Shown here: piece after piece, positions 5,800 through 40,003 of the stretch
Position numbering within the stretch: position 1 is the stretch's first letter
Layout of the letters: each line of letters starts with the position of its first letter
NCBI GenBank assembly: GCA_963457665.1
Contig: OY735215.1
Span: 37,900,325-37,964,324 of the forward strand
Origin: Thysanoteuthis rhombus
Taxonomy: Eukaryota; Mollusca; Cephalopoda; Oegopsida; Thysanoteuthidae
DNA: 64,000 nt
Reading direction: 5' to 3'
Translations under genes and position numbers: made by a program
The notes under the pieces: generated by a model
Seen by the model: only the letters and a program-made list of their open reading frames with translations
What the model was told of the DNA's origin: nothing
The model's database searches: none

Positions 5800-6960
5800 T
5801 ATACCACCAAGCTACTGTGTGAATATATGGTAAAATGAACTTGGAAATACCAAGTAAGGCAATTTCTTGAAATAGTATTCGCAATTATTCGAATACACTC
5901 ATAATTTGAAACTATTTGAAGTCTCATATATTTCTTCTTCTTTTTTTCAAAGTAAATTGATGCGTTAAAATCATTCATAACGACAGAAGCTAAATTTAAC
6001 ATCCTCTTTGAATTTTTATTTCATTTTAACAAGACTGCGATCTCTTTAAAGTTTAAAATGTCTCATCGCTTTGATTATTTTTTCCAAGTAGTAATTAATT
6101 TCATTATTGTTAGGATATTAATTTTATAGCAGAAAAATGAAAATAGAATGCTATAACATGATTTACAAGCGATGAGTGAGATATTAAATTGAAAGAAGAA
6201 AAGTCAAACCAGGCCTTGGGTGAGGATGCTATTAAAAACTGTCAGCCTAACTAACCGTCAACATATATTTCTTCAGTTTTCAAGTTGGTCTGGCTGGCTA
6301 TGTACGTATGTATATAAGAGAGTATTTATGCATGAGAGTATCATGTGCATAAGCCATACTAATGGAAGTAGAGGGCTGAACAATTTGAACTTTTACGCCT
6401 TATTATGTCGACAAAAATATTTTCGTTCATTTTGCAATGTAAGTTTATGCTGGATCGGTGCCTGACTTTGTGCCAGACAGCATCACGTTTCCTTATAAAT
6501 TTCACACTTTTTAATGATCACTGTCCTACAGAAGGTGAGAGAAATAACTCATTCATCGATCTCCTCTTTCCCCACTTTTTGACTGATCACCTGATTCCAA
6601 AAGACGTAAATGTTTCTACTAAGTGACTTATCGGATATGTTTTCTTGACTGTTTACACCACGATTCTTTCTAACGGATTTTTTTTCTTTTCACTCAGACC
6701 CATGTAAATGTTCTCTGCTATAAAAAAATCAGGTTAGCTTGCGTATACACGATCATTGTGGAGCTAGCAATGCCTGCCTCCGCCAGGTATCTAGTTCCAG
6801 ACAAGGCTGGGAACTTTTGCTCGTTTGTTATAAATCTTTGTGGCAAGAGGAGAAAAACTCCGCTGAAATTTAACAAAGCTCGCTAAAATCATGTAAAAAA
6901 GCTGCTCCCAAATGAGACCCAGACTTTTTCTATCAGCTGAATAAGAAATAATTAGACAGT
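5800..6960. other. Unannotated AT-rich DNA
   Basis: Short overlapping frames only (longest about 80 codons), with no recognisable motif. I see nothing supportable here. Confidence 0.6.
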
Positions 6961-6982: not shown

Positions 6983-7757
6983 TTCAATTTTTTTTCTTCT
7001 TCTTCTTCTTCTTCTTCTTTCTCTTCTTCTTCTTCTTCTTCTTCTTTTCTTTCTTCTTCTTCTTCTTCTTCTTCTTCTTCTTCTTCTTCTTCTTCTTCTT
7101 CTTCTTCTTCTTCTTCTTCTTCTTCTTCTTTCTTCTTCTTCTTCTTCTTCTTCTTCTTCTTCTTCTTCTTCTTCTTCTTCTTCTTCTTCTTCTTCTTCTT
7201 CTTCTTCTCTTCTTCTTCTTCTTCTTCTTCTTCTTCTTCTTCTTCTTCTTCTTCTTCTTCTTCTTCTTCTTCTTCTTCTTCTTCTTCTTCTTCTTCTTCT
7301 TCTTCTTCTTCTTCTTCTTCTTCTTCTTCTTCTTCTTCTTCTTCTTCTTCTTCTTCTTCTTCTTCTTCTTCTCTTCTTCTTCTTCTTCTTCTTCTTCTTC
7401 TTCTTCTTCTTCTTCTTCTTCTTCTTCTTCTTCTTCTTCTTCTTCTTCTTCTTCTTCTTCTTCTTCTTCTTCTTCTTCTTCTTCTTCTTCTTCTTCTTCT
7501 TCTTCTTCTTCTTCTTCTTCTTCTTCTTCTTCTTCTTCTTCTTCTTCTTCTTCTCTTCTTCTTCTTCTTCTTCTTCTTCTTCTTCTTCTTCTTCTTCTTC
7601 TTCTTCTTCTTCTTCTTCTTCTTCTTCTTCTTCTTCTCTTCTTCTTCTTCTTCTTCTTCTTCTTCTTCTTCTTCTTCTTCTTCTTCTTCTTCTTCTTCTT
7701 CTTCTTCTTCTTCTTCTTCTTCTTCTTCTTCTTCTTCTTCTTCTCCTCCTCCTCCTC
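6983..7757. repeat. Very long (CTT)n / (GAA)n tract
   Basis: About 770 bp of nearly pure TTC/CTT triplets on the plus strand, a polypurine (GAA)n on the other, ending in five CTC units and CAGCGG. Single-base interruptions near 7,018, 7,047, 7,130, 7,206, 7,370, 7,552 and 7,636 shift the phase. This is why translated frames show blocks of poly-E, poly-K and poly-R; these are artefacts and not proteins. (GAA)n tracts of this length are known to form triplexes and to be unstable. Confidence 0.97.
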
Positions 7758-24389: not shown

Positions 24390-25239
24390 AGATGATACGC
24401 AAAAATCAGGGGAAAATATAATATTTTATTCAACAAAGTTAAATAATCTAGTGATGATAGTAGAATGAAATTTGGAATGGAGATATGCGCGCTAATGGTA
24501 ATGCACAGGGGACGCCTGAGCGACAAAAAGAGTCGAATTACCGGACAACAGAACAATTAGAGCATTAACCTATAGAAATAACTAGGAGGTTCTTGAATGT
24601 TATTTATCAAGAGAGGATGGCATGAAAAAGAAAATTACAAAGAAGAATAATGAATATAACGCCATGAGAGATCAGAGGAAAATAAATTATACTTTCAAAG
24701 TGTGGATTCGTTATTTGGGGTACTGTAGAATTCTAATGGCCCTGCCGGAAGCTTTTCCAGTTAACGAGGCTCCCCTGAGGCAGAAGAGTCGTGTGTCCGA
24801 ATCACACCGGGAGCTTATCCTTCATTACTAACCTGTGCCATTTACTAACGGCCGTAAACCGACAGTCTGATCAGCAGGGGGGGGGGGGAGGTAGCAACTA
24901 AAATTTAGAAGAGAGGAAATGCTAGTCAAAAATCAAGCAAGAGATGAAAAAGTGTGGAAGATAAAAGTTAGGAGAGTACTATTGATAGTGGGTACGCTCA
25001 AAACCGTACCAAAAACATTGAAAGCGAGATTGGAAGAAGTAGAGATAATAGGAAATATTGAGACTATACAGACCACAGCACGGCTAGAGACTGCATGAAT
25101 TCTGAGGAAATTGCTAGAAATATGAGATCTACGACCCCAGGTGTGAGCAGTGGCCAAAGAGAGAGAGAAGAGGAGAAAAAAAACACATAGTGCTACTGTA
25201 ATATGCGAGGGAGTTATGAGAGGGGGACTGAAGACCTGA
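24390..25239 (+). pseudogene. R4/Dong-like LINE, decayed copy a
   Basis: Two blocks align with the full-length copy. The first, 24,390-24,648, corresponds to the region from the YMDD box to YLGVLE..; the nucleotides for FGME and MVMHRGRLS are recognisable. The second, 24,906-25,239, corresponds to the C-terminal residues VVPVIVGALRTVPKTLRERLEE and runs into the 3' UTR, where it stops inside the first hairpin (CTGAAGACCTGA at 25,228). Between them, 24,650-24,905 replaces most of the zinc knuckle and endonuclease with unrelated sequence, including a G10 run. The join to copy b has no (TAA)n. Confidence 0.75.
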
Positions 25240-26606
25240 AAAGAAATGAAGGAGAAAATAAAGAGAGAATACCTTAAAAGGATAAGGAAAATATTAAAGA
25301 CCAAATTAAACAGCAGAAACCTAATAAAAGGAATGAACACATGGGCTGTGTCAGTAGTGAGATACACAGGACCATTCCTAGGATGGACAAAGGGAGAACT
25401 CCAATCAATGGACAGGTGAACAAGGAAACTTATGACAATGCATAAAGCTTTAGACCCTAGAGATGACACAGATAGACTATACGTTAAGAGAAAAGAAGGG
25501 GTAAGGGGCTTCATCGGCATAGAGGACTTGAACGGCACCACAAACAAGGAAAGAAAAATGGGAAAAGAAAAAATTGTACGGAGAGTTCAAAAGACAGATA
25601 CAAGATGTGGAAGACGAGAGATCATGAACATGGTTACGGAAGGGAAACCTGAAGAGAGAAACAGAATCGCTCATCATGGTAACTCAGAACAAAAGCATCG
25701 GGACAAATTATATAAAAACAAAAATCGACGGAATACAGACAGCAAGTGCCGCCTACGTGGTGAAAGAGATGAGACCGTAAATCACAGAACAAGTGTATGT
25801 AGTCAATTCACCCAGAAGGAGTATAAGCACAGAGACGATAGAGTAGCAACGATGATACACTGGGAACTGAGTGAACGAATGGGATTCAACCATGGGGAAA
25901 AGTGGTACCAGCACAAACCAGAGGCAGCCCTGGATTAATGGCAACCACAAATTACTCTGGGACTTTGACATCAAAACCGACCATCTCATCCAGGAAAGAA
26001 GACCAGACTTGGTAATCGTCGACAAGAAGAGGAAGACCTGCCAAATAGTAGACGTAGCTCTACCTGCAGACCATAGAGTAAAGAGGAAGGAGAGTGAAAA
26101 ACGGGAAAAATACCAGGATGTAGCAAGAGAACTGAAGAAGATGCGGAACATGAAAGTCAGCGTAGTACCAGTCATAGTGGGCGCCCCAGGAACTGTCCCA
26201 AAGACACTGAGGGAGAGACTGGAGGAGATCGGGATAAAGGGAAGGATTGAGACTGAGCAGACCACAGCACTGCTGGGAACTGCGCGGATAATAAGTGCTA
26301 GAAATATAAAAACTGCCACATTAATTGTTAACAGTGACCGAACAGAGGAAGGGAAATGAAAGCGGAAACGAAAACGACAGCACTGGCATGATAGGTGAAA
26401 GAGAGAAGAGATGTTGGCTGAAGACCTGAGGAGACTTATTGTCACTCAGCCTTCAGCAATGACCACTGCGCAACCGGTGTGAAACTGTAAACTGCAGTAT
26501 TACTGTAGCCTATGAGAACTAGGAGAGAAGGGCCGGTGTCTCGAGAAGACTTGCTGTCCCTCAAACTCCAGCGGTTACCACCAGGCAACTGGTGTGAGAT
26601 TGCAAA
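25240..26606 (+). pseudogene. R4/Dong-like LINE, 5'-truncated copy b
   Basis: Begins at the codons for EEMKEKIKREYL and continues to the 3' UTR. Open frames at 25,432-25,938 and 25,871-26,359 are offset by a frameshift after HKPEAALD. About 34 codons present in the full copy (from CVQRAKVVL onward) are deleted after IED. The zinc knuckle has lost its second cysteine (CRLRG instead of CRMCG), while the endonuclease motif RRPDLVIVDKKRK is intact. The 3' UTR with both hairpin modules follows, then (TAA)n. A dead copy, closely related to the full-length one. Confidence 0.85.
26417..26594 (+). ncRNA. Duplicated 3' UTR hairpin module of copy b
   Basis: Hairpin A1 26,417-26,457 is intact; B1 26,464-26,479 has a GCAA loop and one C-C mismatch; C2 26,492-26,508 is CTGCAG/CTGTAG around TATTA; A2 (from 26,532) has lost its outer left arm by mutation but keeps GAC/GTC; B2 26,579-26,594 is perfect. 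Confidence 0.6.
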
Positions 26607-26671
26607 TTATAATAATAATAGTAATAATAATAGTAATTATGATAATAATAATAACAATGATAATAATAATT
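26607..26671. repeat. (TAA)n tract, imperfect
   Basis: TAA units interrupted by TAG, ATTATGA and ACAATGA, linking copy b to the UTR-only copy c. Confidence 0.9.
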
Positions 26672-26903
26672 GACGTAAGAACCACAGCATTGCTGTGATA
26701 GGCAAGGGAGTAATGAGATAGAAGGATGGCTGAAGACCTGAGTAGACTTACTGTCACTCAGCCTTCAGCAATAAATACTTGACAACTGGTGTGAAACTGT
26801 AAACCACAGTGGTGTTGTGGACTATGAGAATGTGTAGAGGAGGGCTGGAGACTTGAGGAGACTTGCTGTCACTCTACTTGTAGTGGTAACAACCAGCCAA
26901 ATC
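26672..26903 (+). mobile_element. R4/Dong-like LINE, copy c, 3' UTR only
   Basis: An extremely 5'-truncated copy consisting only of the duplicated 3' UTR. Hairpin C1 is perfect here (CACAG, loop CATTG, CTGTG at 26,683-26,697), A1 is perfect (26,729-26,769), C2 is CCACAG/TTGTGG (26,804-26,820), and A2 (26,844-26,884) is intact on its left arm only. It sits between two (TAA)n tracts. Confidence 0.85.

Positions 26904-26940
<37 letters not shown>
26904..26940. repeat. (TAA)n tract at the 5' junction of the full-length copy
   Basis: About eleven uninterrupted AAT/TAA units, immediately followed by the 5' end of copy d. Confidence 0.95.
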
Positions 26941-26941
<1 letters not shown>

Positions 26942-26944
26942 TAG

Positions 26945-29900
26945 AGTGAACTACAAGAGATTCGCATTAATGTAGAGAGAGGTTCAGGTGACACATCTGA
27001 AGAATGCCCCCCCAGCACAATTAGTACCAATAACAAAACTAGAATAATTCCCCATGAGACCCCCACAGTAAGGTATGTATCAGAGGGTGATGACGAGGCA
27101 CCTACAGAAGAAGAGAACACCAAAATACAAGCTTTGAAAGAGATCATGCGAGGAGAGAAAACAACACTCCCCTCCCTAAGAGACAAAGACAGAAAGAAAG
27201 TCGGAGAAGTGACCGAGCAGGTCAACTGCCTCTTACAGCACATAGAAACAAACACCCTCCTAGAACTCAACAACCTAATTTATGCAGGGGCGAAAATGGT
27301 AGGACAATGCTTTACAACACAAGATAGGGACCCGAGCAATAATAGGGAAGGGAAACCCAACTGGGAGAGAAGGTTACAAAGGCAGATCTCCCAACTACAG
27401 AGAGATGAAGTACTGCTTAGAAATACACCACACACAGACAGACCACGAGTAAGACTTTATAACAAATACAAGGTAACGCAAAAAGGCATCGCAACTGTAG
27501 TCGAAGAGTTACACCAAAAAAGACTAGCCAAAGAGGCAAGACTAAAAAGATACAGACTAAGAACAGCCCAATACACACAAAACCGCACATTCCAAAACAA
27601 TGAGAAAAAGTTTTACCGAGATTTAAATGGGGAAAGAAGGCAGGACATGAAACCAGATGCCACAGAGGCTAAGAACTATTGGAATAGCATATGGGGGCAC
27701 CCAAAAAGACATAACGTAACACCGCAATGGTTAGGAAACATGAGAAAAGAACTAGGAGAAATAGACAAGGGAGAACCAATAGTACTGAATGAAACCACAT
27801 TGAAACATACTCTTAGGAAAGTAGCCAACTGGAAAGCACCGGGTCCCGACGGGATCCATGGGTATTGGTTCAAAAAATTTACCACGTTACACGGCAGACT
27901 CACTCACCTACTCCAAAATTGTTTGAATGAAGGCAAAGCACCAGAATGGATGACTAAAGGCAGAACCACCCTCATCCAAAAAGACCCGGGAAAGGGGAAC
28001 ATAGCAAGCAACTATAGACCAATCACTTGCCTACCACTTATGTGGAAAATCCTGACCGGGCAAATAGCAGAGAGAATATACATGTCAATGGATAGAAGGG
28101 GGCTACTACCAGAAGAACAGAAAGGGTGTAGGATAGGAACCAAAGGGGCAAACGATTTACTCTACATAGACCAGATGATCTTAAAAGAAGTAAGGAAAAG
28201 GAGAAAGAATATCGCAATGGGATGGATAGATTACAAAAAGGCATACGATATGATTCCACATAGCTGGATACTCGAATGCCTTAGAATGTTCAAAATTAGC
28301 GAACCGGTGGTTAAATTCATTGGTAATTCAATGAAAGACTGGAAAGTAGATTTGACAGCCGCAGGGGACAAACTAGCCGAGGTAGGGATAAAAAGGGGGA
28401 TCTTCCAAGGAGACTCGTTGTCCCCACTATTATTTGTTCTAAAAATGATACCGCTTAACAGAATCCTGAAAAACAGCAAAGGATACCACTTCTCTAAAAC
28501 AAAAGGAAAGGTCAACCACTTAATGTACATGGACGATATTAAATTGTTTGCGAAAAACAGGGGAGAGCTTGAGACTCTGTTCAACGAAGTAAGGGAATAT
28601 AGTGAGGACATAGGAATGGAGTTTGGGATAGAAAAATGTGCAATCATGGTGATGCACAAAGGAAGGCTTTCAATGACTGAGGGAATTGAACTTCCGGACA
28701 ACAACAAGATTAGGGCATTGACTGCACAAGACCGATACAAGTACCTAGGTGTCCTTGAATGTGACACGATAAAACGGGAAGAGATGAAGGAGAAGATTAA
28801 GAGGGAATACCTTAGAAGGATAAGGAAAATATTAGAAACCAAATTAAATAGCAGAAATCTAATAAAAGGAATGAACACCTGGGCTGTGTCAGTAGTTAGG
28901 TATACAGGACCATTCCTAGGATGGACAAAGGAAGAGCTCCAATCAATGGATAGGCGAACAAGGAAACTTATGACGATGCATAAAGCATTACACCCTAGGG
29001 ATGATACAGATAGACTATACGTTAAGAGAAAAGAAGGTGGTAGGGGGCTCATCAGCATAGAAGACTGTGTCCAGAGAGCTAAAGTAGTCCTAGATAGATA
29101 TGTGCAAACAAATAGTGAAGAAATCATAAAGAGCGCGAGGGATAGTGCAACAAACAAAGTAGAAAGCAATGGAACGGTACAGCAAACTAGAAAAGAAAAG
29201 TGGGAAGGGAAAAAATTGTACGGCGAGTTTAAAAGACAGATAAAAGATATAGCAGACGAGAAATCATGGACGTGGTTACGAAAGGGAAACCTTAAGAGAG
29301 AAACAGAATCGCTCATCATGGCAGCCCAAAACAAAAGCATAAGGACAAACTACATAAAAGCAAAAATCGACAGAACACAGACAAACAGCAAATGCCGCAT
29401 GTGCGGTGAAAGAGATGAGACAGTAAACCACATAACTAGTGAATGTAGTCAACTCGCCCAGAAGGAGTATAAGCATAGACACGATAGAGTAGCAACGATG
29501 ATACACTGGGAACTAAGTAAACAAATGGGATTCAACCATGGGGAAAAGTGGTATCAGCACAAGCCAGAGGCAGTTTTGGAGAATGACAACCACAAACTAC
29601 TGTGGGACTTTGACATCCAAACTGACCACCTCATCCAGGCAAGAAGGCCGGACTTAGTAATAGTAGACAAAAAAAGGAAGGCCTGCCAAATAATAGACGT
29701 TGCTGTGCCTGCAGACCATAGAGTAAAAAAGAAGGAGGGTGAAAAAAGGGAAAAATACCAGGACCTAGCAAGGGAGTTGAAGAAAATGTGGAACATGAAA
29801 ACCAGGGTAGTACCGGTCATAGTGGGAGCACTACGAACTGTCCCCAAAACGCTGAGGGAGAGACTGGAGGAGATCGGGATTAGGGGGAGGATAGAGACCG

Positions 29901-29959
29901 TACAGACCACAGCACTACTTGGAACTGCACGGGTACTGAGGAAGGTGCTAGAGATATAA
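26945..29959 (+). CDS. R4/Dong-like LINE protein: reverse transcriptase with CCHC knuckle and restriction-like endonuclease
   Basis: An uninterrupted frame of about 1,004 codons, open from just after the 5' (TAA)n; the first in-frame ATG is at 27,146, so the true N-terminus may be missing. Numbering residues from 27,134, the reverse transcriptase shows NWKAPGPDG (232-240), the first catalytic aspartate in WIDYKKAYD (D366), QGDSLSPLLF (from 425) and YMDD (465-468). A CCHC knuckle follows, C754-X2-C-X8-H766-X4-C771. The C-terminal restriction-like endonuclease has RRPDLVIVD with P839, D840 and D845, followed by ACQIIDVAVP. This order (RT, CCHC, endonuclease at the C-terminus, no APE domain) is that of the R2 superclade; the (TAA)n setting points to R4/Dong. 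Known members cut target DNA and copy their RNA in place. No disabling change is visible. NeSL- or HERO-like membership cannot be excluded. Confidence 0.9.
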   Translation, partial: SELQEIRINVERGSGDTSEECPPSTISTNNKTRIIPHETPTVRYVSEGDDEAPTEEENTKIQALKEIMRGEKTTLPSLRDKDRKKVGEVTEQVNCLLQHIETNTLLELNNLIYAGAKMVGQCFTTQDRDPSNNREGKPNWERRLQRQISQLQRDEVLLRNTPHTDRPRVRLYNKYKVTQKGIATVVEELHQKRLAKEARLKRYRLRTAQYTQNRTFQNNEKKFYRDLNGERRQDMKPDATEAKNYWNSIWGHPKRHNVTPQWLGNMRKELGEIDKGEPIVLNETTLKHTLRKVANWKAPGPDGIHGYWFKKFTTLHGRLTHLLQNCLNEGKAPEWMTKGRTTLIQKDPGKGNIASNYRPITCLPLMWKILTGQIAERIYMSMDRRGLLPEEQKGCRIGTKGANDLLYIDQMILKEVRKRRKNIAMGWIDYKKAYDMIPHSWILECLRMFKISEPVVKFIGNSMKDWKVDLTAAGDKLAEVGIKRGIFQGDSLSPLLFVLKMIPLNRILKNSKGYHFSKTKGKVNHLMYMDDIKLFAKNRGELETLFNEVREYSEDIGMEFGIEKCAIMVMHKGRLSMTEGIELPDNNKIRALTAQDRYKYLGVLECDTIKREEMKEKIKREYLRRIRKILETKLNSRNLIKGMNTWAVSVVRYTGPFLGWTKEELQSMDRRTRKLMTMHKALHPRDDTDRLYVKRKEGGRGLISIEDCVQRAKVVLDRYVQTNSEEIIKSARDSATNKVESNGTVQQTRKEKWEGKKLYGEFKRQIKDIADEKSWTWLRKGNLKRETESLIMAAQNKSIRTNYIKAKIDRTQTNSKCRMCGERDETVNHITSECSQLAQKEYKHRHDRVATMIHWELSKQMGFNHGEKWYQHKPEAVLENDNHKLLWDFDIQTDHLIQARRPDLVIVDKKRKACQIIDVAVPADHRVKKKEGEKREKYQDLARELKKMWNMKTRVVPVIVGALRTVPKTLRERLEEIGIRGRIETVQTTALLGTARVLRKVLEI

Positions 29960-30202
29960 GTACTGCAACGAATCGTAGCTCTGTCATGATATGCGAAAGA
30001 GAGAGGAGACATTAGCTGAAGACCTGAGGAGACTTATTGTCACTCAGCCTTCAGCGATAACCACTGGGCAACCGGTGTGAAACTGTAAATCGCAGAATTA
30101 CTGCGACCTATGAGTACTAGGAGAGGAGGGCTGGAGACTTGAGGAGACTTGCTGTCACTCAAACTCCAGCGGTTACCACCAGGCAACTGGTGTGAGATTC
30201 CA
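29960..30202 (+). ncRNA. Structured, internally duplicated 3' UTR of the full-length LINE
   Basis: Two half-units of about 105 bases. Hairpin A1 30,015-30,055 and A2 30,130-30,170 each have three stacked helices (7, 5 and 3 bp). Hairpins B1 30,062-30,077 and B2 30,177-30,192 have 6-bp stems closed by GCAA. Hairpin C2 30,090-30,106 has a 6-bp stem TCGCAG/CTGCGA with loop AATTA; its first-half counterpart near 29,975 is degraded in this copy. Differences between halves are largely compensatory. In R2 elements the 3' UTR RNA is bound by the element protein to prime reverse transcription; the same role here is inferred. Confidence 0.7.
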
Positions 30203-30216
30203 AATAATAATAATAA

Positions 30217-30247
<31 letters not shown>

Positions 30248-30261
30248 AAGAAGAAGAAGAA
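30203..30261. repeat. (TAA)n passing into (GAA)n
   Basis: Five TAA/AAT units become AAG/GAA units without spacer, joining the full-length copy to copy e. Confidence 0.95.
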
Positions 30262-31052
30262 ATAGGGAACGTGAAGAGAAAAAAAGAATTGCTTATCATG
30301 GCAGCCAAAAACAAATGCATCAGGACAAACTATATAAAAATCAAAATCGATAGAACACCGACAAACAGCAAGTGCCACCTACTTAGTGAAAGAGATAAGA
30401 CTGTATATCACATAAATGTAGTCAACTCACCTGGAAGGTGTATAAACATAGGCACGATTGAGTAGCAACAGTGATACCCTGGGAACGAGTAAACAAATGG
30501 GATTCAATCATACGGAAGAGTGGTACCTGCACAAACCAGAGACAGCCGTGGATAATGGAAAGCTCAAATTTCTTTGGGATTTTGACATCCAAACGGATCA
30601 CCTCATCTAAACGAGACGACTGGACCGAGTAATCATGGACGAGAAGAGGAAAAACTATCAGATAATAGACGTGGCCGTGCCTGCCGATCTTAGAGTGAAG
30701 AGGAAAGAGAGTGAAAAAAATGGAAAAATACCAAGATCTGACGAGTGAACTGAAGGTATGGAACATGGAAGTCTGGGTGGTACCAGTAATGATATGTGCA
30801 CTCGAAACTGTTCCACGGACATTGAACATAGAAGGAGGGAGAAAAAAAAATACCCAAACGGTGAGCTGAAGACCTGAGGAGACTTACTGTCACTCAGCCT
30901 TCAGCGATGACCACCGGATAACTAGTGTGGAACTGTAAACCACAGTATTGCTATGGACTATGAGAGTGTGGAGAGGAGGGCTGGATACTTGACAAGATTT
31001 GCTGTCACTCAACCTCCAGCTGTAACCACAAGGCAACTAGTGTGAAATTGGT
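30262..31052 (+). pseudogene. R4/Dong-like LINE, 5'-truncated copy e
   Basis: Starts within the codons for RKGNLKRETESLIM and includes the knuckle region and endonuclease in broken frames: the second and last cysteines of the knuckle are damaged and stops interrupt the endonuclease. The 3' UTR retains A1 (30,865-30,905) without change, B1 with a mutated loop (ATAA), C2 as CCACAG/CTATGG (30,940-30,956), A2 (30,980-31,020) and B2 with one mismatch (31,027-31,042). Confidence 0.85.
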
Positions 31053-31053
31053 G

Positions 31054-31097
<44 letters not shown>

Positions 31098-31137
31098 TAT
31101 TATTATTATTATTATCATTATTATTATTATTATTAAT
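31053..31137. repeat. (TAA)n head-on with (TTA)n
   Basis: About 14 ATA/TAA units on the plus strand switch abruptly to ATT/TTA units for about 12 more, forming a self-complementary palindrome-like tract at the end of the LINE chain. Confidence 0.95.
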
Positions 31138-31139
31138 TA

Positions 31140-34100
31140 TGCTTCATCAAATGAAAAAAAAATGATATGGTCCATTATTCTCTTTTTTCTTATTCTCACT
31201 TTTTTTATTCGGTATTCCAAATGATATTCTTTCTCGTTCAATCTTCATTTTTCCCCCGCCGAAGAAGCGTGGAAGTAAAAAAAATCATAATTAAAAGTTT
31301 TCGAACGCGGGAGAGATTGATGGAGAAAGCTCACGGACGGTGAAACAGTTAGACGGGAATCTGACAGGAAAATAACTATTACTAGTATGGTGTAATAGTA
31401 GTTATTAACTCAGCTTAGTTACGTGCGAGAAACAGAATTCGATGAAACTGAAGTCCCTTCCCGATTCAGTTGTCAGAAACAGGTGGAATCCAGGCCACGG
31501 ATAAAACTGTCTGCATCATCGCCAAGGATTGGTAATGAATCAAGGCAAAAACCGGATATGATTAGAAGTGAAATGATATTTCTACATATCAAATTCTGAG
31601 TTTGATTGTATATATCGAGTGCATGATTTTCATAGAATATGTTTATAGGAATAAAGTAACGCTGATTGAATTGGCATTTTCTTCCCTCTTTATTTCCAAC
31701 TTCTCCAAATAAGATCTATGACATTGTTCACCGTTTCTTTCTAATTGGCTCGGAAATATTCATTGTTAAAAGGCTTCACAATAGATTGTCAATTTATTTG
31801 AATATTTAAATCTGTATGATTCCGATGATTGTTATGCCAGGTGTTCATGATCCAACTTTTCTTTTCATCTTATATACGATTCCTTATATTCATTCGCTTT
31901 TTGTTCCTTCCTCAACATCTTCTAATTCTGTGACACGTTTATTCCTTCCCCCTTTTATTCAGTCGTTCGTCCGCTCATTCTAGCTCTTACGTTCCTTTGA
32001 CGATACCATGTCCAATGGGCGGCCGGCTTTCCCCCGCCCCCACTTGAACAATAACCATTCCTGATCGACGAAGCCATTAAAGCATTTCGACTTGGTCAGA
32101 TCCCCCGTGATAATAGATGTCACGAGGTTGTTCGGTCACGTGGTATCCCAACGAACTTCCGTCGCATTTTTATCACCTCCCGATGTTGAAAAGCTCTTTA
32201 GAGAGATCAATGATAACAGAATTATGAACAAAAAAAAAGGTGGAAGATGTAAAGAAAGAATCAAACGTAGGAAATGTTTACATTGAACTCGTTGGAAACG
32301 CGAGCAGATTTCAAAACAAAGTCTCATCTATTGTTTCGGCCGGCTTTGTTATTCTCCACACTCGGAACACTATGTTATTCAGTTTAATAATAATAACTAC
32401 CTTTTATGCTGTCTTCCCTCTTGTTCTTAGTAATTTTCCTACTATCAACGTTATTACCAACGCTGTTGTCGTCAACTTTATTCCATTGTTTAATCTATCC
32501 AGCGTCAGTTTTTAAAAAGATAAGTCTCCGTGTGGGTAGGAGTGTGTGCAGTTCAAAAATGATTGGTAAGCGGAGACGTCAACACCAAGGCAACATGGAA
32601 CCGAATGAAAGAGAACTTGATTTGTCCTCGAGGATGAAATGGTTGTAAATGCCTATGGAAGCTGGTAGTTTCTGAACGAGCTGAGCTGATGATACTGGCT
32701 ACATGTTCGAGAAAGGCATACAGCTCTTAGTTCCCTTGAATGATTGACATAGCAAAACGTCACTTCTTCCATTTTCCTCTTTTTGTTCATATGCCGTACG
32801 AAGAAATGCTTGAAAATATACGATAACACTGTGACCCATAGGGTCAACGTTTGATAAAAATCAGCGCAATCTGATGTGACTTGAATGAATCTAGATTCAT
32901 ACACTTTTGCGAAAAAACATGGATTATTACTCTATAATTAGCGCTTAATTGTAATATCCCTCAATTATAGGATAATTATGGTATAGGTATAAATGGGATC
33001 ATATTCAGATCCCACATCCCTGCAATTATTATTAACGGAAAAATTCCCCCTTTTTTTCTTCTTCACACTAAAGCATTCTAAGGCTCCTTCAATTCCAGAC
33101 CTCTGACAACTATATACTTTTTCGACTACGCTGGGGTCATAAACAGATCTTTAGTATTATATAGATAAGGAAAAGGACTGTGCTCTCACAGTACCGATGT
33201 CTTACCTATTTTGAGTGTGAGCGTTAGCAGTTCTTGGTTGTGTTGCATTACGATGTTATCAAATTAATTCAGTAGTTCTCAGTCATTTTTTCTACGCAGT
33301 CTTTTCACGATATTTCAGAATGTCGTTCCCTATTCCAAGATTACGTGACTAAAATGGGCATTCTGAATAACTTGCATAAAAGTGAAATATCCTGTTAGTT
33401 TGAATCTGCCAACCATTGGTTGCAATCCAACCCCAGAACCGTATAATGTACTAAGGCATATATTCTCCCTCCTAGTTGAGAACCTGTGGGTTAGCCTAAT
33501 CGTACACTGTCAAGTCTTTAGAGGGCAATTTTTAATGGTACAAGTGCAGGCAAGGAAGAAAAAAACTTGCTGTAAAACTGGTAATCTAATCCTCTTACGC
33601 CACTGCTGGAACCCTAAGGAGAGATGATGTATCGAAAAAATTATCTCGTTTATTTTCTGTATTTGTCAAAAAAGACCCTCCTTTTAAAAACAGGAAACAA
33701 ACAATAAATATTCAGACAGGAATCTTCATTTCTGTTGTCTTAGTTACAATGTCCCAGTCTAACAGTTTCCCGACCTCGTAGAGTCATCTGAAATTCTGGG
33801 ATGAAACATTGCAATTACGTCATTGATTTTTCAGACTAGTATCTTTACACCGACGACGTATAATATCTCTAGAATATATTTGCCAAGGATGAAAAAACTA
33901 GTCTTAATAAAATGAGGGCTGTGACTGTTTCTGAGTTTCAGATGGTATTTATGGTTGTCTGATATCAGGTATACACTAATAATTCAGAAATGTCCTATCG
34001 TCATTTAGGAAAAAAAAGTGTTTTTCCGACACTTAAAATAATGATGGATCTGTGTGTTGTCAAATTGGTGGTGTTGTCTGCAACAATATAAAAATGATTT

Positions 34101-39821: not shown

Positions 39822-40003
39822 TTCTGGAGGTTCCAACCCAGCAGCAGCATCTCCCCATTACACTTGGCGGAGAAGATACACGTACGTATCACTGGGTGCA
39901 GAGATTGATCAATTCTCGAGGTTCCGACCCTGCTGCAGCACCTCCCCATTACATTTAGCAGAAGAGATATGCTTGCATATCATTGGGCGCAGAGACTGAT
40001 TAA
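39822..40003 (+). repeat. 91-bp tandem duplication
   Basis: Two units, 39,822-39,912 and 39,913-40,003, each 91 bp with no length difference. Conserved words include AGGTTCC.ACCC, GCAGCA, CTCCCCATTACA and TGGG.GCAGAGA. They differ by about one base in six. Each unit can form a short stem between GAGGT and ACCTC (or GGAG and CTCC) around its start. Confidence 0.85.

Follow-up and report, generated by a model that had tools for sequence, protein, structure and literature searches.

The 3′ UTR of a LINE retrotransposon in the genome of the cephalopod Thysanoteuthis rhombus is composed of two homologous units in tandem, which are predicted to fold into closely similar RNA hairpins and which differ in a manner that largely preserves those hairpins. 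We consider it probable that this UTR is a duplicated template-recognition RNA for target-primed reverse transcription (TPRT), with unit 2 acting at the priming point and unit 1 having an accessory role. Positions given below refer to the window, i.e. the whole stretch of 64,000 nucleotides that was analysed (Table 1), whilst whole-genome counts refer to 2.73 Gb in 514 contigs.

The LINE is encoded by a single open reading frame containing a recognisable reverse transcriptase (RT) domain (Pfam RVT_1, E 2.7e-27); in the PDB its sequence is best matched by R2 retrotransposon proteins (E 2.7e-23). C-terminal to the RT domain two motifs were identified by eye, a CCHC knuckle and a PD...D endonuclease motif, and we take these to be marks of LINEs with a restriction-like endonuclease (RLE); the Pfam zf-RVT model scored 23.7 bits on the frame, under its cut-off of 27.5. 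On the basis of these sequence features the element is classed as an RLE-type LINE (R2 group) that is Dong-like, and it behaves as a TAA-targeting, Dong-like element since the frame starts directly after (AAT)n and the 3′ UTR runs into (TAA)n. R4/Dong elements carry an HDV-like ribozyme at the 5′ end; no match to that ribozyme was obtained with Rfam (E≤1; 25400-31200) for this copy, which may be 5′-truncated. The unit contains the string CTGAGGA, which resembles the hammerhead core; no Rfam family for a hammerhead or other known ribozyme was matched in the unit with the same threshold and interval.

Table 1. Positions of the LINE, its 3′ UTR hairpins and further UTR copies within the window. 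MFE, minimum free energy
Feature	Positions	Strand	Description and basis
Second complete two-unit UTR	26370-26607	+	Downstream of a decayed related element; profile matches 104.0 and 94.7 bits
Third two-unit UTR copy	26677-26903	+	Between two (AAT)n tracts, no ORF; second unit 3′-shortened; 88.3 and 67.5 bits
LINE open frame	26945-29959	+	1004 codons open after TAA repeat; stop 29957-29959; stop-free translation from 26945
CX2CX8HX4C zinc knuckle (CRMCGERDETVNHITSEC)	29393-29446	+	Seen by eye in translation
PD-X14-D restriction-like endonuclease signature	29648-29698	+	Seen by eye in translation
LINE 3′ UTR	29960-30208	+	Two ~115-nt units after stop codon
Unit 1 hairpin C remnant, TCGTAG/TCATGA	29973-29989	+	3 Watson-Crick pairs, 2 G.U, 1 A.C mismatch
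Unit 1 hairpin A	30015-30055	+	7 + 5 + 3 bp, 5-base loop; sequence, MFE fold, RNAalifold (16 chosen units)
Unit 1 hairpin B, CACTGG-GCAA-CCGGTG	30062-30077	+	6 pairs, GNRA-type tetraloop; sequence, fold, RNAalifold
Unit 2 hairpin C, TCGCAG-AATTA-CTGCGA	30090-30106	+	Fold, unit alignment, pairing counts
Unit 2 hairpin A, GCTGGAG/CTCCAGC, TTGAG/CTCAA	30130-30170	+	Sequence, fold, RNAalifold
Unit 2 hairpin B, CACCAG-GCAA-CTGGTG	30177-30192	+	~10 nt ahead of tail; sequence, fold, RNAalifold
Element end + TAA tail or target, AAATAATAATAATAAT	30202-30217	+	Followed by (AAG)n, 30218-30261
Fourth two-unit UTR copy	30820-31055	+	First unit without 5′ part; followed by (ATA)n; 77.2 and 90.9 bits

The division of the UTR into two homologous half-units, proposed in a first-pass annotation of this DNA, is borne out by the sequence and by a repeat finder, which matches 30004-30090 with 30119-30205 at 76% identity and a spacing of 115. 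The arms, inner helix and tip with a 5-base loop described for hairpin A are present as claimed in both halves, in the sequence and in the MFE fold. In unit 1, the outer arms GCTGAAG/CTTCAGC correspond to 30015-30021/30049-30055 and the inner helix CTGAG/CTCAG to 30024-30028/30043-30047, and the tip is GAC/GTC. For hairpin B, both versions and the shared GCAA tetraloop were found as described, although an additional, one-sided U.G to C-G change had not been listed. The description of each half as comprising hairpins A and B was correct as far as it went, but overlooked a third hairpin, C, within the ~115-nt repeat; in unit 1 of the window none of the six pairs of its hairpin C remnant is present in the unit's MFE. 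The MFE of the complete UTR is -84.6 kcal/mol (z = -4.14, with 0/200 shuffles as good) and includes both A and both B hairpins. A structured RNA conserved beside the priming tail, which is a trait of R2-like 3′ UTR handles, is found in this element.

Within hairpins A and B, the two halves of the window differ at 14 of the 66 compared columns, and all 21 pairs stay paired; three pairs are double-compensated, in addition to the U.G to C-G change. When the same substitutions were placed at random (100,000 trials), at least three double-compensated pairs were obtained in 0.77% of trials and all 21 pairs were kept in 0.15%, with both outcomes occurring together in 0.014% (P = 0.00014).

For comparison across copies, 119 units were collected from sampled loci, of which 64 were nonredundant (<97% identical); a gap filter removing rows with >12 gaps in 121 columns (2/64) left 62. 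Units whose E exceeded 1e-9, or whose match covered ≤80 model positions, were left out, as was the locus L001, which is the same place as the window. From a subset of 16 chosen low-decay units RNAalifold recovered hairpins A and B unaided, with 3 of the 21 pairs double-changed, but from all 64 nonredundant units, including decayed ones, it recovered almost nothing (-0.55), a result which we attribute to the decay of dead copies. The 27 unit-1 rows gave parts of A and B (-7.4), and no structure was returned for the 27 unit-2 rows.

Shuffling tests were carried out on an alignment of 48 units (46 of the 62 nonredundant units and the window's two). Paired cells amounted to 88.0%, compared with 85.0 ± 0.3% after shuffling, a level reached in 0/500 shuffles, and the covariation of the 27-pair structure was 0.224, compared with 0.169 ± 0.006 for shuffled alignments (0/500) and 0.049-0.111 for slid structures. 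The excess of double-changed pairs was weak (12 versus 9.0 expected; 27/500 shuffles as high), and the number of further pair types was unremarkable (36 versus 34.1; 70/500 shuffles as high).

A tree-based null (200 nulls), generated by our own script modelled on R-scape, was applied to all 62 units, to 27 unit-1 rows and to 25 unit-2 rows. Pair by pair, 0/27 pairs reached E<0.05 in each of the three sets, in a test of low power, given the small number of source-level changes. With all units included, the summed score of 81.0 exceeds all 200 nulls, the highest of which is 78.6, and that for unit 2 alone (48.3) exceeds its highest null of 40.5, whilst the score for unit 1 alone (9.2) lies within the nulls (mean 1.7, sd 16.7). 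Amongst the top 25 column pairs the number of structural pairs was 0 for all units, 0 for unit 1 and 1 for unit 2; when all column pairs are considered, E<0.05 is reached by a single one, between columns 21 and 30 in unit 2, and this lies outside the structure. The first-pass annotation had taken the paired changes as strong evidence for a selected RNA structure and had looked to a large copy alignment for covariation above phylogenetic expectation. The pooled tests support such a structure; significant covariation of individual pairs is, however, absent from our 62 nonredundant units, which make up a smaller alignment than the one it had in mind. The evidence for selection at the RNA level is real but modest.

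Were the structure of consequence only in copied RNA, stems would be expected to be more conserved on branches common to several copies than elsewhere. Using one tree with parsimony states, we compared internal branches (those with ≥3 leaves, used as a proxy for source lineages) with all others. Stem substitutions accounted for 44/150 changes on internal branches versus 267/630 on the others (Fisher P = 0.0039). In relative rate, A stems stood at 0.46 and A loops at 0.80, B stems at 0.72 and the B tetraloop, with 2 against 25 changes, at 0.34. Changes in A and B that keep pairing were also more frequent on internal branches (12/19 versus 55/168, P = 0.012), the corresponding values for the single hairpins being P = 0.05 (A) and P = 0.11 (B). 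For hairpin C there was no keep/break difference between the branch classes (P = 1.0) and the stems were no slower (rate 1.13).

The type of wobble tolerated in the helices gives an indication of the strand on which they act. In a palindromic stem, A to G in one arm and T to C in the other represent the same mutation on opposite strands, but give G.U and A.C, respectively, in the sense RNA. Exact genome-wide counts in matched contexts were G.U 1267 versus A.C 158 for hairpin B and G.U 614 versus A.C 13 for hairpin C, which favours sense RNA over DNA as the form under selection and suggests that G.U source lineages spread in B and C whilst A.C ones did not, although these are counts of copies rather than of independent events, such that one G.U lineage per helix would suffice. 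Pair 49-81 of hairpin A in unit 1 goes in the opposite direction (G.U 60 versus A.C 108) and provides no support. In the sampled copies, hairpin C of unit 2 is present as CCACAG/CTGTGG, CCGCAG/CTGTGG and TCGCAG/CTGCGA, all of them paired; we infer that these variants represent one stepwise compensatory path.

The exact 16-base core is present 34,475 times genome-wide, compared with once for a reversed-pattern control, and units were found in 3/20 stretches of 10 kb in a random sample of 200 kb. Among the matches listed (100 places), 66 cores are arranged as 33 pairs with a distance of 115-116 nt, and no triple is present. Amongst nonredundant units typed as 1 or 2, the nearest neighbour has the same unit position in 51/52 cases, and since units sort by position in this manner the duplication predates the sampled subfamilies. 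At one locus (L025, 889-1232) an array of three successive 115-nt units is located ahead of the TAA tail, which indicates that the module number can change. More distant relatives were also inspected: a strongly decayed element (L058; 35-73% amino acid identity by segment) is followed by both units (61.3 and 61.6 bits), a distant element beside L025 (L057; 31% amino acid identity) has no unit at E≤10 in 302 bases, the place of its UTR being an estimate, and in a further locus (L015) the downstream fragment stops short of the C-terminus.

Within the window, the second UTR copy belongs to a decayed relative of the LINE at 24396-26293, which is in several frames and has main pieces with 56-65% amino acid identity; the UTR-only copy at 26677-26903 is either a short 5′-truncated copy or a non-autonomous form. 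The TAA tails of some copies (30218-30261 in the window, and L003, L054 and L056) pass into, or are replaced by, AAG, ATG and GTA-type trinucleotide arrays, as though mixed microsatellites were seeded by copies or served as their landing sites. The window also contains a (TTC)n array of 750 bases with 97% matches (6994-7744) and a 91-base unit in two copies head-to-tail with 79% matches (39822-40000). A protein scan of IMG/VR gave no relatives; the 16-base core is present in 3 IMG/VR contigs, which have no encoded relative at E≤1, and a weak profile match of 28 nt (14.7 bits) was dropped as chance, the contig set having been chosen by the same core pattern.

The two units differ in hairpin C. 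When units of at least 110 nt were folded singly, with near-identical copies counted and a hairpin regarded as formed if ≥60% of its pairs were in the MFE, hairpin C was formed in 41/52 unit-2 rows versus 1/54 unit-1 rows; the corresponding values were 40/52 versus 48/54 for hairpin A and 43/52 versus 43/54 for hairpin B. In nonredundant rows, the mean number of possible hairpin C pairs was 3.48/6 in unit 1 and 5.24/6 in unit 2, with certain old unit-1 copies retaining 5 pairs, whereas the mean pairing of A and B is nearly equal between the units (A, 13.67/15 in unit 1 versus 13.64 in unit 2; B, 5.33/6 versus 5.20).

The units also differ in their relation to the target sequence. The end of unit 2, in the form of the youngest subfamily's string (29/54 unit-2 rows), is joined to TAATAATAA at 6055 exact junctions genome-wide, which is a raw number and not a share of all unit-2 ends; the unit-1 end string (38/54 rows) is present 14,023 times and is joined to TAATAATAA once. 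TAA repeats follow 41/47 readable unit-2 ends (7 more are cut by the locus end) and 0/54 unit-1 ends. The insertion into TAA repeats that is typical of Dong elements is thus observed for this family, and the junction counts suggest that the start of reverse transcription lies after unit 2, with unit 1 not being an alternative start. As there is no UAA after unit 1 in the RNA, these counts speak to the start of copying and not to the binding of unit 1 by protein. The sole genomic place with an exact unit-1 end directly into TAATAATAA (G000:C3:28461852) possibly represents a single internal start. The earlier proposal of two handles per transcript is not supported if these are understood as equivalent starting points, both because of the junctions and because most copies of unit 1 have a weak hairpin C or have lost it.

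These features, together with the precedent of R2, inform on a possible mechanism. Each unit presents the long three-part hairpin A and the GNRA-capped hairpin B, to which unit 2 adds the retained hairpin C before A. The element's own RT would bind the UTR RNA, the A-B pair likely functioning as the handle by analogy with R2, and TPRT would start at the TAA tail directly after unit 2, which would position the RT; unit 1 may be an accessory that provides added affinity, placement or RNA folding. A role of the 3′ UTR as a protein-binding handle for TPRT, which had been the best guess of the first-pass annotation, is plausible on this analogy. More tentatively, the handle may have been duplicated and then specialised, such that unit 2, in which stepwise compensatory changes have maintained hairpin C, brings the RT to the TAA priming point, whilst unit 1, with C weakened and A and B kept, offers a further binding site, one that a second protein molecule, for instance, could occupy; the UTR would then be a built-in dimer platform. 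There is perhaps a similar chance that unit 2 is the sole handle and unit 1 a relic in the process of being lost. The near absence of unit-1 ends joined to TAA repeats (1/14,023) and the formation of hairpin C in so few unit-1 rows are what would be expected of a relic; hairpins A and B of the window's unit 1 are, however, intact, and the near-equal mean pairing of A and B in the two units is not readily reconciled with loss.

The hairpins could alternatively be inherited from one ancestral unit and be under little or no present selection, with the paired changes being a small number of chance events that copying has spread. This would be consistent with the lack of any significant pair relative to the tree null (0/27), with the hairpin A pair in which A.C outnumbers G.U (108 versus 60), and with the small number of source-level events. 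We nonetheless judge it improbable in view of the permutation result (P = 0.00014), the slower change of stems on internal than on other branches, the G.U excess of ~8:1 in B and ~47:1 in C, and the three hairpin C variants of unit 2, all of which are paired. The excess of G.U over A.C in B and C is peculiar to the sense RNA, whereas the two transitions would be equivalent in a DNA palindrome, and it is thus highly improbable that the palindromes act as DNA in target marking or recombination, even though copies are located near one another and in TAA arrays. It might instead be proposed that the structure serves not RT binding but the 3′-end formation, translation, stability or export of the element RNA, since a GNRA hairpin close to the 3′ end could protect the RNA; the location directly ahead of the TAA tail and the R2 precedent for RT binding, as described in passages of the R2 literature (PMC11371274, PMC12222951, PMC4117753), both favour template recognition, and make such a role in RNA fate unlikely. 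A duplicated template-recognition RNA remains our preferred interpretation of the UTR.

Stringent LINE and SINE tails of the UnaL2 type consist of a single short 3′ stem-loop and short repeats, and are recognised by the RT. The present UTR shares a 3′ stem-loop structure with these, but has two multi-hairpin units in place of one short stem-loop. R2 elements (Bombyx, Drosophila, Taeniopygia) are, like this LINE, of the RLE type, and the passages compared describe their structured 3′ UTR as recognised by the RT for TPRT: in the R2Bm 3′ UTR the RT binds an element of two hairpins, and in that of R2Tg a pseudoknot (PMC12222951), the RNA-binding motifs of R2 lie N-terminal to the RT domain (PMC4117753), and in Drosophila willistoni compensatory changes are reported at the 3′ end between R2 and a short derivative (PMC3414825). 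Unlike this LINE, which is located in TAA repeats, R2 sits in 28S rDNA, and the passages on R2 that were compared do not mention a handle duplicated in tandem. Dong (Bombyx mori) and R4 (Ascaris) are likewise RLE-type LINEs, and the TAA flanks observed here have a counterpart in the Dong assay, which was described with TAA repeats upstream (PMC3774820). In cephalopods, Dong-R4 LINEs are named amongst the expanded or recently active families (PMC8967140, PMC13282606); the descriptions concerned are silent on UTR structure. Within the open-access literature (titles and abstract openings, subscription journals being mostly uncovered), a duplicated 3′ UTR module in R4/Dong or R2 elements was not found, which is weak evidence of absence.

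The manner in which RLE-type LINEs choose their own RNA has been worked out mainly for R2. In the passages compared, R2 is the main source on template choice by LINEs of this type (PMC11371274, PMC12222951). The tandem handles described here, with thousands of natural variants per half in one genome, allow the parts that are needed at the priming point to be compared with those that drift. They are also relevant to the number of protein molecules, one or two, that act on each RNA, and could define the minimal template content for a TAA-targeting LINE.
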